Assembly (NCBI GenBank): GCA_028684195.1
Contig: JAQUGH010000008.1
Location: 1 to 33,669 of the forward strand
Direction: 5' to 3'
DNA: 33,669 bases
Source: Clostridia bacterium
Lineage (GTDB): Bacteria; Bacillota; Peptococcia; DRI-13; DTU073
The translations under genes were made by a program, and so were the position numbers. Below the pieces are notes generated by a model, which was not told the DNA's origin, ran no database searches, and saw only the letters and a program-made list of their open reading frames with translations. Positions 12,529 to 33,621 of this stretch are shown here, piece by piece (within the stretch, counting starts at the first letter, position 1; every line of letters begins with the position of its first letter).

Positions 12529-13044
12529 ATGATATTATCCGGACTAGAAATTAGAAAAAAACTTGGAAATGAAATCACTATTGACCCTTTTAAAGAAACC
12601 CAACTAAATCCCAACAGTTATAATCTTACCTTACACAATGAATTATTAATCTACACAGATCCGATCCTTGACATGAAAAAGGAAAACAAAACCAAAAGCT
12701 TAATAATCCCCTCCGCAGGTTTGGTATTAAACACAGGTTCCCTCTACTTAGGCAGAACAAACGAATATACCATCACCAATAACTATATTCCCATGCTCGA
12801 AGGAAGATCTTCTATTGGACGTCTAGGGATTAGCGTTCATGCTAGTGCTGGTTTTGGTGACGTCGGATTTGCCGGTTATTGGACGTTAGAAATCACCTGT
12901 GCAAAGCCCGTCCGTATTTATCCCGATATCCAAATTTGCCAAATTTTCTATCATCATATTGAGGGTGATTTTGTACGTTATCACTCTACAAAATATCAAA
13001 ATAACCAAGGGATCGTACCCAGCCAATTATATAAAGACTTTTAA
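12529..13044 (+). CDS. dcd: dCTP deaminase family protein
   Basis: MILSGLEIRKKLG..LNPNSYNL, PMLEGRSSIGRLGISVHASAGFGDVGFAGYWTLEI with catalytic Glu; AGGAGG RBS upstream. Confidence 0.92.
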   Translation: MILSGLEIRKKLGNEITIDPFKETQLNPNSYNLTLHNELLIYTDPILDMKKENKTKSLIIPSAGLVLNTGSLYLGRTNEYTITNNYIPMLEGRSSIGRLGISVHASAGFGDVGFAGYWTLEITCAKPVRIYPDIQICQIFYHHIEGDFVRYHSTKYQNNQGIVPSQLYKDF

Positions 13045-15477: not shown

Positions 15478-15924
15478 CTATCTCTGTTCTAATAAAGTGA
15501 TTTTATCTACTCTTTTTTTATGTCTGCCTCCTAAAAATGAGCTTGTCAGCCAAACTCTCACAATTTCCAAAGCCAGCCCTTTGCCTACAACTCTTTCTCC
15601 CAAGGTTAGAATATTAGCATCATTATGTTCACGAGCTGCCCTAGCGGAAAAAGTATCACTACATAAAGCCGCTCTAATCCCCGAAACCTTATTAGCAGCA
15701 ATGCTTACTCCAATACCCGTACCACAAACTATAATTCCTTTATCACATTCCTCAGTCACCACAGCTTGTGCTACTTTAAAAGCATTATCGGGATAATCAC
15801 AAGATTTGGTATCAAAAGTCCCATAATCCTTGAAATCATACCCGTTTTCTCGAAGAAATAGTTTTATTTCTTCCTTTAAGTTATAACCTCCATGATCGGA
15901 TCCTATAGCAATTCTCATCATCAT
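15478..15924 (-). CDS. rpiB: Ribose-5-phosphate isomerase B
   Basis: RIAIGSDHGGYNLKEEI, IIVCGTGIGVSIAANKVSGIRAALC, REHNDANILTLG. Confidence 0.97.
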   Translation of the reverse strand: MMMRIAIGSDHGGYNLKEEIKLFLRENGYDFKDYGTFDTKSCDYPDNAFKVAQAVVTEECDKGIIVCGTGIGVSIAANKVSGIRAALCSDTFSARAAREHNDANILTLGERVVGKGLALEIVRVWLTSSFLGGRHKKRVDKITLLEQR

Positions 15925-15955: not shown

Positions 15956-16693
15956 TTAATTTTGCAATTTACCAGACGAATAGTTTTTTAAAATCTTGTG
16001 CACAGCCTTTGAAACATATTCCGAAAGTTGCGTAGCACACGCCCGATATTTTTCAATAGATTGACCGAAGGGATCCAGTATATCAAGGTCTTTTATTTCA
16101 TCCTCTACTCTTTTTAAAGCTTTTGTTTCTTCCTTTGCAACTTCAGAAAACTTTTTTTCCCAAGCAATAAGCTCTCCCTCTATTTTCTGTAATTCAAATA
16201 ATGTTTTTTCCCTACTTTTTTCTAATTCTATAATCTCATCACGGTGTTCTTGAAAAAATTCTCGTTTTATCTTTTCTATTTTTTCATAGAGTTTTTTCGC
16301 TAACTCTCTCTGCTTATGTAACATCTCCTCCCCCATAACAAATTCTTTTAATACATAAACCTTTTCTTCAACATCTGGTAGCATCTTCACAACATAATCT
16401 TTTTGTCTCTCTGTCATGGTTAGCACTATTTTTGCTTTTTTAACAAATTCTTTAGTAAGATAGCTTGATCTATGCTTTGAAATATCCAATCCCATTTCTT
16501 GCATAACAGCTCTCGCTTGAGGAGAAGCCATCTCATTATCAATAGCACCCGTTCCAGCCGAAACAACCTTAATATTGGTTTTAGCGTTTTTCATGCGACT
16601 AATAAAATCTTTTGCCAAAGCTTCAGCCATAGAACTCCGACATGTATTGCCTGTACAAACAAAAAGAATCAACGTCTTATCTTTCTCCGCCAT
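15956..16693 (-). CDS. ywlE: Low-molecular-weight protein arginine phosphatase (YwlE-like) with a long helical insertion; ORF-track start is 16708, start at 16693 preferred
   Basis: FVCTGNTCRSS P-loop (Thr in the arginine-phosphatase-type position) and LDPFGQSIEKYR catalytic-Asp loop. GGAGGAAGG precedes the internal ATG (MAEKDKT). Confidence 0.9.
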   Translation of the reverse strand: MAEKDKTLILFVCTGNTCRSSMAEALAKDFISRMKNAKTNIKVVSAGTGAIDNEMASPQARAVMQEMGLDISKHRSSYLTKEFVKKAKIVLTMTERQKDYVVKMLPDVEEKVYVLKEFVMGEEMLHKQRELAKKLYEKIEKIKREFFQEHRDEIIELEKSREKTLFELQKIEGELIAWEKKFSEVAKEETKALKRVEDEIKDLDILDPFGQSIEKYRACATQLSEYVSKAVHKILKNYSSGKLQN

Positions 16694-16707
16694 AATTCCT
16701 TCCTCCA

Positions 16708-17286
16708 TTACCAGATCAATAATTTCAAAGCTATAGCTACGAGAATAAATCCCCCTACTATCTCTGCCTTTTCCCCTATCGCTTTACTAAGTCCCTTCCC
16801 GAAAACAAGTCCTCCCATTGTCATTAAACCTGCCACAATTCCCATAGTAACGACAGTTAATAAAAGCTCTACTTTTAAAGCACCCAACCCAAAGCCTACC
16901 GTCAAGGCATCTAAGCTAACACTTCCCGCCATAAGAACTAAGCTTAGCGGATTTTTAATATTAATTATTCCCTTGGATAAATTATTCTTTTTTAAATCAG
17001 ACAACTTAATTATACCGAGCGTTTGTAGATTATCCCAAATAGTATTTAAACCTATAGCTAACAAAACAAAAGCTCCTACTATATTTGCAACAGGCCCAGC
17101 TATATTTCCTAAATACGTTCCCAAATATAGACCTATCAAGGGCATAAATACATGGAAAATACTCACAATTCCTGAAACAATCAATATCTCCCTTATTTTT
17201 ACCCCCAGCAGCCCAATACTGATTGCAACTGAAAAAGCATCAATACCCAAAGCTACCGACACGAGCAAAACTGTAGTGTAATTCAT
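16708..17286 (-). CDS. mntP: Manganese efflux pump MntP family
   Basis: Six-TM protein, SVALGIDAFSVAISIG and AGSVSLDALTVGFGLG repeats. Confidence 0.93.
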   Translation of the reverse strand: MNYTTVLLVSVALGIDAFSVAISIGLLGVKIREILIVSGIVSIFHVFMPLIGLYLGTYLGNIAGPVANIVGAFVLLAIGLNTIWDNLQTLGIIKLSDLKKNNLSKGIINIKNPLSLVLMAGSVSLDALTVGFGLGALKVELLLTVVTMGIVAGLMTMGGLVFGKGLSKAIGEKAEIVGGFILVAIALKLLIW

Positions 17287-17430: not shown

Positions 17431-17510
17431 CCTTGCGCCTTGTGCCTTGTGCCTTGTGCCTTGCACATTGCAAATTATAAACTATGTATTGCACATTGTA
17501 AACTATATGT
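17431..17510. repeat. 7-bp tandem repeat (CCTTGTG type) followed by ~22-bp imperfect repeats
   Basis: ccttgcg ccttgtg ccttgtg ccttgtg ccttgca cattgca, then attgcaaattataaactatgt / attgcacattgtaaactatatgt. Confidence 0.85.
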
Positions 17511-18571
17511 TATACATTAACTACCTTATATCCTGCTGATTTTAATAAACGGTTCATGAGTGCAGCACCTAACCCTTTTTCAGTGTATGTCTCTGTAAAA
17601 ATAATATCCACACCTGCTACATCACAGCTTCTTAGTTCTCCATATAACATTCTTGCTATTTCATCAAGCGCTAAACAGCTACCAAGATTTTTACTATATG
17701 TTGCTGATAGCATCACTTTATCATCAATATTTTCCCATGTTTCTTCTGTTAATAAAAGTCCTATTTTTTTCCCCATACAAAAGTAGTTTTCTACAAGTTC
17801 ACAGATTTTACACCTAACGTTTTCTCTTTCCCCTTTAATCAAAACGACTTCTGCTCTTGGAGAATAATGTGTATATTTCATTCCTGGTGCTTTAGGCTTT
17901 TGTTGTAAATCAGTCAACCCAGGGTCTACCCTTACCGTTCCCAAGACCTCTGATAGAGCCTCTCTCGTAATCCCTCCCGGTCGCAGAATAGTAGGAATAT
18001 CACCTGATAAATCCAAAATTGTAGATTCTAACCCTACTCCAGTAAAACCGCTGTCCAAAATTGCTTCTATCCGTCCTCCTAAATCATCATAAACATGTTG
18101 ACCGGTAGTTGGGCTTGGATAACCGGAACGATTAGCACTCGGAGCAGCCACAGGTACTCCTGCTTCCTTAATTAAGGCTAAAGCTACTGGGTGAGCAGGC
18201 ATCCGTATAGCAACAGTGTCCAAGCCTGCTGTAACCTCTATCGGTATATCTTTCTGTTTAGGCAAAATAATGGTCAATGGTCCCGGCCAAAAAGTATTTA
18301 TTGCTTTTTGAGCACATTCGGTTACTTGACTAGCCAACTTAAAAACATCTTCAGCTTCAGCAACATGAAGAATTAACGGATTATCAATCGGTCTTCCTTT
18401 TGCTTCAAATATTCTTTTAACAGCTTGCGAATTCAAGCCATTAGCCCCTAATCCATATACTGTCTCTGTCGGGAACGCCACCAAGCCACCGTCACTTATA
18501 ATACCGGCCGCTCGTTCTATTATTTTATGATTAATATCATCTTTAAATACTTTCCAGTATTTTGTTTCCAT
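17510..18571 (-). CDS. ywlC: Threonylcarbamoyl-AMP synthase (Sua5/YwlC, long form)
   Basis: LVAFPTETVYGLGANG, KGRPIDNPLILHV, PSANRSGYPSPTT; C-terminal Sua5 domain. Confidence 0.96.
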   Translation of the reverse strand: METKYWKVFKDDINHKIIERAAGIISDGGLVAFPTETVYGLGANGLNSQAVKRIFEAKGRPIDNPLILHVAEAEDVFKLASQVTECAQKAINTFWPGPLTIILPKQKDIPIEVTAGLDTVAIRMPAHPVALALIKEAGVPVAAPSANRSGYPSPTTGQHVYDDLGGRIEAILDSGFTGVGLESTILDLSGDIPTILRPGGITREALSEVLGTVRVDPGLTDLQQKPKAPGMKYTHYSPRAEVVLIKGERENVRCKICELVENYFCMGKKIGLLLTEETWENIDDKVMLSATYSKNLGSCLALDEIARMLYGELRSCDVAGVDIIFTETYTEKGLGAALMNRLLKSAGYKVVNV

Positions 18572-24949: not shown

Positions 24950-25315
24950 TTAATTATTAATAACTTTTTCTAATAACTCTTTTACATCTTCAATACCAAA
25001 AGGTTTTTTAATAATTGCGTCTATTTTTAATCTATAAACCTCTTCCGCCAACTCAGACTCACTATACCCAGTCATCAATATTATTTTTAGATCTTTTTCC
25101 TGCCTCAGTAAATTTTTTATAGTATTGACACCATTCATTCCCGGCATTTTCATATCTACCATTACAACATGAAAATCACCCTGCTTTACTAATTCAAGAG
25201 CCTCTTCTCCAGCAGCTACCGAATGTACTTCGTAACCCAACATTACACAGGTTTCAACTAATACTCTGCGAATCCCTTCTTGGTCATCTACAATTAAAAC
25301 CTTAAAATTCTTCAT
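24950..25315 (-). CDS. spo0F: Stand-alone response regulator receiver, Spo0F-like
   Basis: KVLIVDDQEGIRRVLVE, VVMVDMKMPGMNG, KKPFGIEDVKELL. Confidence 0.9.
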   Translation of the reverse strand: MKNFKVLIVDDQEGIRRVLVETCVMLGYEVHSVAAGEEALELVKQGDFHVVMVDMKMPGMNGVNTIKNLLRQEKDLKIILMTGYSESELAEEVYRLKIDAIIKKPFGIEDVKELLEKVINN

Positions 25316-31732: not shown

Positions 31733-33106
31733 TTACGCTACATTAAATTCAGATTCCGTTGGAGGTGTAATCCTTGTAACAACTTCCTCACCACCTGTAT
31801 TTGCATTATAAAATATAATGAACTTTTCTTCAGAAAAAGTACCCCTTACTTCCCATGTTAGCACTTCTTTTCCCCATGTATTAACAATTAGAGCTGGGCG
31901 TATCAATTCTACTTTCAAATTAGGATTGATTTGTTTGCGTAATTCTTCTTTACTTAATGTCGCCTTTGATAGTTCTCTCTTCTTGTGGTACATATAATAA
32001 TTTGTACCCTCATAACCTAATATTTCTCCATTATCAAGGGCTATTTGTAACTTTATCTGATCCGGATATAGTAAGACATCCTCTTGACGTGGGGCTAAGG
32101 TATATATACCAGTATTATCCTGCTTTTGCACTTGCACAACAGTAAAATTATTGTAATTTCGTTTTTCTAAAAATGTCTGTACTCTCCTCTCCCCCTCATT
32201 TAAATCTATATTATCTTTTTCAACCACTTTCCTTTTCATAGCCCATACTACCGCTCCATCTAATTTACTAACATCAATATATACTGGTTCTGTTTCTTCT
32301 CCTATAGGTAATATCTCAAGTCCAAAGGTCGGAATATCACCTATTCCTTCATAAGCTAACTTTGCTTTATACTTACTAGAATCAGGATACCACCAAGAAA
32401 GTGCAATTTTTTTTGCCTCTTCTTGCGTAATATTTTCTTTTCCTCTTACTTTTTTAGCATCAGGTTCTACTGCTGATAAATTTTCACCTAAATTTATTTC
32501 TGGATACTCTTCCATTTTTTTTTCCATTAATTCAAACCCATCAACAATCGTATTATCTTCAAGTTCTTTATTAGTAGTAATAGTAGCGACTTCAACCTGC
32601 GTCCAACTTAATTCCTTATTTAATATTTTCGCCCCTAATTTATCTAAATCTTCTTTCATGCTTTTAGAGCGATTATATAATTCCTCAATAATCTCAGAGC
32701 TTTTTTTGTCAAATCCACCCTCTCCTTGAGATACCTGATTCAAAAGGGCACTAGCCACCTCTCCTGTATCAGATAAAAATTTTTCCGTGTTGGAAAGTGA
32801 TACATAAGCCAATGGTAAGCTACCTATATTAGCTTGAGCCGCAAAAACCTGTCTCCAGATTGTTGCTATAGATAAAATAGACTGCTCCTTTGAACTATTT
32901 ATCAATGTTTGTGCTAATTGTCCCGAAATATTATCTAAATGCCATGTAAGCTCATAAAATGACTTTTGATACTGACTTTCTGCTCTGTTTTGTAAATTTT
33001 GTCTTATTTTAGATTCTTGATATCCCCATACCCCCGTACTAATAAGTCCTATCACTAAAATTCCAGGAACTATCCACTGCTTCCATTTTTTCATTATTAT
33101 ATTCAT
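31733..33106 (-). CDS. ypeB: YpeB, spore germination protein
   Basis: N-terminal TM, PepSY-like C-terminal repeats; directly downstream of sleB. Start placed at ATG 33106 with GGTGA upstream; the ORF-track extension to 33199 overlaps sleB. Confidence 0.92.
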   Translation of the reverse strand: MNIIMKKWKQWIVPGILVIGLISTGVWGYQESKIRQNLQNRAESQYQKSFYELTWHLDNISGQLAQTLINSSKEQSILSIATIWRQVFAAQANIGSLPLAYVSLSNTEKFLSDTGEVASALLNQVSQGEGGFDKKSSEIIEELYNRSKSMKEDLDKLGAKILNKELSWTQVEVATITTNKELEDNTIVDGFELMEKKMEEYPEINLGENLSAVEPDAKKVRGKENITQEEAKKIALSWWYPDSSKYKAKLAYEGIGDIPTFGLEILPIGEETEPVYIDVSKLDGAVVWAMKRKVVEKDNIDLNEGERRVQTFLEKRNYNNFTVVQVQKQDNTGIYTLAPRQEDVLLYPDQIKLQIALDNGEILGYEGTNYYMYHKKRELSKATLSKEELRKQINPNLKVELIRPALIVNTWGKEVLTWEVRGTFSEEKFIIFYNANTGGEEVVTRITPPTESEFNVA

Positions 33107-33114
33107 TCCTTTCT

Positions 33115-33621
33115 TCACCGAGCAAATACATGCATCCCAATACGAGCAATAATGGGTCTTGACCAAATCCACTTGGATGTTGCCGTGGCAGGATTCCAAT
33201 AATACAAAGCTCCTCCCGTAGGATCCCAGCCGTTTATAGCTACTCTGGCTGCCTTCACTGCATCTGCCTTAGGAGCTCGATAATACTGTCCATCCGACAC
33301 TGCGTCAAATGCTCCCGGTTCAAAAACCACACCGTATACACTATTGGGGAAATTTGGGTTTTTTGTACGATTAACTATAACTGCTCCAACCGCAACTTGT
33401 CCCAAATAGCTTTCGCCCCTTGCTTCTCCTGCTATTATTTTGGAAAGAACATAGACATCATTACTAGAAACTGTACCACCATTTTTACTACTTTGTGCAA
33501 CTTCAACAGCACCATATGGCGTACTGTAATCCCCTTTTTGTACGTATTGCCTTTGTTGCCACATTCCAACTGCCACTAAAAATATTGTAGCTACAATAAG
33601 CAACGCTACTTTTTTTGTCAC
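33115..33621 (-). CDS. sleB: SleB spore cortex-lytic enzyme (short form), GTG start
   Basis: VYVLSKIIAGEARGESYLGQVAVGAVIVNRTKNPNFPNSVYGVVFEPGAFDAV; GAGGGGAG RBS before the GTG. Confidence 0.94.
   Translation of the reverse strand: MTKKVALLIVATIFLVAVGMWQQRQYVQKGDYSTPYGAVEVAQSSKNGGTVSSNDVYVLSKIIAGEARGESYLGQVAVGAVIVNRTKNPNFPNSVYGVVFEPGAFDAVSDGQYYRAPKADAVKAARVAINGWDPTGGALYYWNPATATSKWIWSRPIIARIGMHVFAR

Follow-up and report, generated by a model that had tools for sequence, protein, structure and literature searches.

What, if anything, does an otherwise ordinary protein-arginine phosphatase gain from a predicted helical arm of about 80 residues set beside its catalytic-acid loop? The question is raised by a gene in a 33,669-nucleotide stretch of DNA from a Clostridia bacterium (contig JAQUGH010000008.1), which we refer to as the window. 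The gene and its relevant parts are as follows.

15956..16708, minus strand: open reading frame of a YwlE-type protein-arginine phosphatase, 250 aa
16634..16657, minus strand: P-loop CTGNTCRS, residues 18-25, with Thr at the position for pArg over pTyr
16082..16339, minus strand: 86-residue linker with a conserved helical insert, residues 124-209
16064..16075, minus strand: DPFG loop with the general-acid Asp, residues 212-215

Judged from its sequence, the window protein is a protein-arginine phosphatase of the YwlE kind, as the initial annotation had proposed, and phosphoarginine activity is predicted for it. The protein contains KVYVLKEFVMGEE...LDILDPFGQSIEKYR, matching the quotation in that annotation. 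It belongs to the Pfam family LMWPc (PF01451; 99.8 bits, 2e-28, cutoff 23.2), whose best match covers residues 14-128 and ends at the insert. The solved PDB structures nearest to it are YwlE arginine phosphatases from Geobacillus and Bacillus, and the core of its predicted model superposes on YwlE (LMW-PTP fold) with target TM-scores of 0.88-0.91 in Foldseek. The P-loop had rightly been described as intact: CTGNTCRS follows the pattern C(X)5R(S/T) and includes the arginine-specificity Thr. This Thr, rather than Ile at the fifth variable position, occurs in 53/53 insert-bearing and 52/52 insert-free sequences, and a DP-x-G-like loop is found in nearly all of the 105 compared sequences, in both forms.

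Comparison with characterised enzymes places the difference in the linker. The YwlE proteins of Bacillus subtilis and Geobacillus stearothermophilus (PDB 4kk3, 4etn, 4pic) share the core, the P-loop Thr, the DPFG motif and the LMW-PTP fold, but have about 9 residues where the window protein has its 86-residue linker with the helical arm. PtpB of Staphylococcus aureus is likewise an arginine phosphatase with the P-loop Thr; according to the sections of its description at hand (PMC8001253), this Thr confers phosphoarginine selectivity in both YwlE and PtpB, the Asp equivalent to that of DPFG is catalytic as part of a D-P-Y triad, and those same sections describe no insert. A low-molecular-weight phosphatase fused to RpiB in T. 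tengcongensis (PDB 4egs, chain named RpiB) has a catalytic core of the same family, yet there the added part is a C-terminal enzyme domain, whereas in the window protein it is an internal arm. Among PDB chains, no solved structure matched across the insert. The window protein thus departs from the compact domain of ~150 aa without a large insert, a build that we regard as typical of YwlE phosphatases and not as defining them.

The linker was counted from LKEF (last residue 123) to two residues before DPFG. In the alignment with B. subtilis YwlE (4kk3; KVFTLKEYVTGS..DVLDPFGGSI) LKEF stands exactly on one side of the insert and DPFG on the other, which confirms the claim that it lies directly before the DPFG loop. 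A profile made from the insert only (27 sequences, the window's own among the 27 rows) matches 16088-16333 on the minus strand at 75.6 bits, and so returns exactly the stretch of ~82 aa that had been annotated at first, for which no strand had been given. The size itself is corrected slightly: the linker is 86 aa long, and the net gain over the usual linker of 6-9 residues is ~78-80 aa. Across 36 sequences, L162 is fixed in 100%, residue 194 (E194 in the window protein) is D/E in 100% and residue 177 (E177) in 92%; the insert positions also show a heptad hydrophobic stripe, together with D at 209 or a near equivalent. Near-fixed positions beyond the heptad stripe argue for selection on the arm. 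Searched alone against Pfam, the insert gave no convincing family match, and its weak matches (a BBS2 hairpin, DUF445 and others) were judged to be coiled-coil noise.

The initial annotation had considered both that the insertion might be ubiquitous in the family and that it might be restricted to one clade; it is neither. A profile search detected the full-length armed form in 48 of 399 genomes spread over the phylum, roughly one in eight, with scores of 210-325 bits that stand clearly apart from all others (<=181 bits). Among 100 relatives, matches were full-length in 20 genomes (the window's own included) and ended at the insert in the rest; over all searches, carriers fall under about 28 family codes. 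Linker length is two-peaked. About 30 of 40 insert-bearing linkers have exactly 86 residues (range 79-86), and most relatives are insert-free with linkers of 6-38 residues, apart from two exceptions of 62 and 64. These two (L110 in genome G300, 62 aa; L108 in genome G282, 64 aa) are partly helix-like with a Gly-rich middle, and could be shortened arms, although their scores do not show it: the arm-like resemblance of these linkers, and of those in genus g42, did not clearly beat shuffled sequences. More generally, a search for arm remnants in insert-free linkers gave no support for them, with one weak case (L107).

Judged by profile scores, the inserts of the different families are homologous. 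The window-order profile scores a median of 37.7 bits on inserts from other families, against 99th percentiles of 6.2 bits for shuffles and 26.3 bits for shuffles that preserve the hydrophobic pattern. Even the weakest families (f10, f24 and f83), each scored against a profile made from the remaining ones, exceeded every one of 500 shuffles that kept the pattern. These scores and the exact length rule out convergent coiled coils of similar composition. The insert occurs once per genome, and its profile matches strongly only the phosphatase; phages held no match covering 80% of the window protein, and plasmids only two such records, at 23-29% identity. Consequently, we also discard the idea of a mobile or dispersed module. 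Elsewhere, the insert profile matched a 119-aa open frame at G180:C12:3052-3267, possibly a frameshifted or broken armed phosphatase.

The history of the insert is one of repeated change of state. Both states occur inside nine families (the window's own, f1, and f4, f10, f11, f24, f39, f50, f101 and f118), and also within the single genus g42, where the coding DNA on either side can be aligned as far as the linker. On a tree of the cores only, 20 state changes are needed, and well-supported branches impose six or more of these; given the short core, only a few forks are resolved. A single clade of all insert-bearing cores is rejected (p-AU 2.5e-56), and this, with the distribution, rules out an insert private to the window organism or to one clade. 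Further, insert and core distances are correlated (Mantel r 0.68, and 0.36 between families; permutation maxima 0.14 and 0.13). Taken together, the rejected clade and the correlated distances are best fitted by an old element that was lost many times. One old gain followed by many losses is the simplest reading, in which we infer loss over transfer; that only the insert was transferred is less probable.

The gene lies in a conserved setting, of which the nearest members in the window are listed here.

15478..15924, minus strand: RpiB (ribose-5-phosphate isomerase B), the next gene downstream, a conserved neighbour
16708..17286, minus strand: MntP-like membrane protein, the upstream neighbour, conserved
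17510..18571, minus strand: Sua5/YwlC-type protein, further upstream, a conserved neighbour

The phosphatase gene thus occupies the orthologous operon position, sua5 - mntP - ywlE - ywlG/rpiB - glyA, and insert-bearing and insert-free genes have a common neighbourhood of sua5, mntP, rpiB, glyA and often ywlG. In-frame fusions to RpiB were seen in four insert-free phosphatases (L024 in G006, L029 in G004, L097 in G357 and L119 in G423), and in no insert-bearing phosphatase among the relatives examined. Elsewhere in the window, open reading frames that by eye resemble SpoIID (539-1552), the single-domain response regulator Spo0F (24950-25315), YpeB (31733-33199) and SleB (33115-33621) suggest a spore-former. 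A dCTP-deaminase-like frame, also recognised by eye, lies on the plus strand at 12529-13044, with minus-strand genes in long series on either side.

The insert does not track the arginine kinase, a relation that had been raised for McsB at the outset. McsB is encoded in 50 of 53 insert-bearing genomes (18/20 and 32/33 in two sets); of the 37 insert-free genomes in the second set, 36 have it too. McsB and CtsR were not found in the window's genome, but there the ClpC gene (contig G000:C220, locus L130) runs off the end of a 4,106-base contig, with its first 21 aa missing. In the nearest relative, G003, ctsR-mcsA-mcsB lie immediately upstream of clpC, so the absence is probably an assembly gap; loss of the two genes, which we had considered, is withdrawn. 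The insert-bearing members G001 and G003 of the window's family both encode McsB. Four genomes of family f8 (G017, G018, G020 and G023) have neither a YwlE match nor McsB, in keeping with the established connection between phosphatase and kinase. The insert-bearing genome G075 is without McsB and ClpC, whether by loss or by an assembly gap, and its congener G150, also armed, has both (loci L123 and L133).

We tentatively favour, with less than even confidence, an ordinary YwlE phosphatase that carries an old helical arm of ~80 residues for docking or positioning. The enzyme is of the usual kind, at the usual position of the ywl operon, with the arm beside its catalytic-acid loop. At the level of sequence the arm is one homologous, old element of the phylum, near-constant in length and kept by purifying selection where present; it was probably lost many times independently. 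Because the catalytic residues are the same in both forms, the arm most likely contributes to the surroundings of the active site and leaves the chemistry unaltered, and it may decide which phosphoarginine proteins or partner complexes reach that site. Three things make docking or positioning our first choice: the arm is attached beside the general-acid loop, it is conserved, and the catalytic residues are unchanged. In B. subtilis, YwlE removes phosphate from McsB and from the substrates of McsB, and oxidation regulates it (PMC5506225, PMC8370763); candidate docking partners are therefore McsB, ClpC and their clients.

Several observations count against a docking arm, and they also speak for its nearest rival. 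Frequent loss, inside families and inside one genus, shows that many species can do without the arm; the LKEF-DPFG linker varies across the family (6-38 residues, with the two of 62-64), so that the site is tolerant of decoration; and the presence of the arm bears no relation to that of McsB. All of this would fit a neutral or nearly neutral decoration, in which a tolerant loop accepted an arm that only keeps itself folded. We nevertheless consider neutrality unlikely. Had so old an insert been neutral, its length ought to have wandered like that of the insert-free linkers; the near-constant 86 aa over about 26 families speaks against this, as do the strongly conserved columns, some of them charged.

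How the arm is folded bears on the remaining alternatives. Two AlphaFold2 models were made: one of the window protein (19 sequences; mean pLDDT 86, pTM 0.72) and one of a relative, L043 (46 sequences; mean pLDDT 94.6, pTM 0.61). The insert is divided as follows.

16247..16330, minus strand: predicted helical segment 1, residues 127-154, in both models (the second transferred by alignment)
16235..16246, minus strand: helix break, residues 155-158
16139..16243, minus strand: predicted helical segment 2, residues 156-190, in both models
16091..16135, minus strand: predicted helical segment 3, residues 192-206, in both models

Both models and the sequence pattern bear out the initial description of the insert as helical and coiled-coil-like. 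Its further description as a helical hairpin stands less well, since a simple two-helix hairpin is doubtful with Gly/Pro breaking the helix at 155-158 and not in the middle. The window-protein model has helices at 127-154, 156-166, 173-190 and 192-206, and shows a hairpin with a central turn whose apparent tip has a pLDDT of about 55. The better-supported L043 model has three segments, equivalent to window residues 127-154, 156-190 and 192-207, with the middle unbroken across the low-confidence interruption at 167-172 of the first; it does not show the central turn, and neither do the positions of Gly/Pro, which occur at 155-158 in 25 of the 36 sequences and at 164-174 in only five. Candidate topologies on these predictions are a two-helix hairpin, a three-helix arm or bundle, and a rod that would require a domain-swapped dimer.

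The last of these would make the arm a domain-swap device: one long kinked helix through which chains pair antiparallel into an obligate or regulated dimer with distant active sites, each chain lending its DPFG loop and last helix to complete the active site of its partner. In the L043 model the segments are only one residue apart, and residues 165-175 have the best helix propensity within the insert and few turn-formers. Foldseek aligns only the first ~112 residues of this model to YwlE (target TM 0.71), where the window-protein model aligned throughout; this suggests that the C-terminal part lies away from its own core in the L043 model, a displacement read from the extent of the alignment and not from coordinates, and Foldseek may simply have stopped at the long gap. 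The window-protein model, by contrast, keeps the C-terminus in its canonical place after the hairpin. Tests of pairing register are similarly divided. With conserved charges, a centre at 171 was the commonest best (158/300 family bootstraps), but that test rests on about 10 columns, and with family weights register 325 is slightly better; by the hydrophobic mirror register, a fold at 156.5 is preferred in 300/300 family bootstraps. Charge covariation between columns gave no usable signal for the pairing register in the 36 sequences. Overall, a swap of this kind seems quite unlikely. Less probable still is its fuller version, in which a helical rod would form a domain-swapped antiparallel dimer with Cys and Asp from different chains, and species would switch to a compact monomer by deleting the rod.

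A fold near 156 would instead suit a three-helix arm, turning at 155-158 and about 191, whose basic patch at 147, 148, 165 and 166 binds an acidic or phosphorylated partner. K/R occupy these positions in 83, 75, 72 and 78% of the 36 sequences, and the Gly/Pro break and the hydrophobic register (313) fall where such an arm would need them. However, a heptad stutter centred at 155 gives the same mirror signal without a fold, which makes that register a weaker argument for folding at 156. In the AlphaFold2 models the breaks span a single residue, too little for the chain to reverse, and the window protein, which deviates from the family at 147 (Ile), 165 (Ser) and 169 (Thr), retains only half of the patch. 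We consider an anion-binding arm improbable. Least probable of all is an autoregulatory lid, an arm that would cover the P-loop and swing away when triggered, for example by stress, by a bound partner or by oxidation: its attachment directly before the general-acid loop and the regulation of YwlE, which gates McsB activity, by oxidation of the catalytic cysteine (PMC5506225) are in its favour, but no active-site-mimicking segment was found in the sequence.

The initial annotation had also allowed that the insertion might already be described in the family; in the open-access literature searched, we found no published description of it in arginine phosphatases. The structural work that we found on these enzymes covers the compact YwlE and PtpB. 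If roughly one in eight of the sampled genomes of the phylum carries a conserved arm at the edge of the active site, then present knowledge of how the phosphatase of the McsB-ClpC system selects its substrates and is regulated extends to only one of the two forms found in nature. The many natural pairs with and without the arm, in the same operon and down to a single genus, provide ready comparisons of how the phosphatase chooses its proteins.
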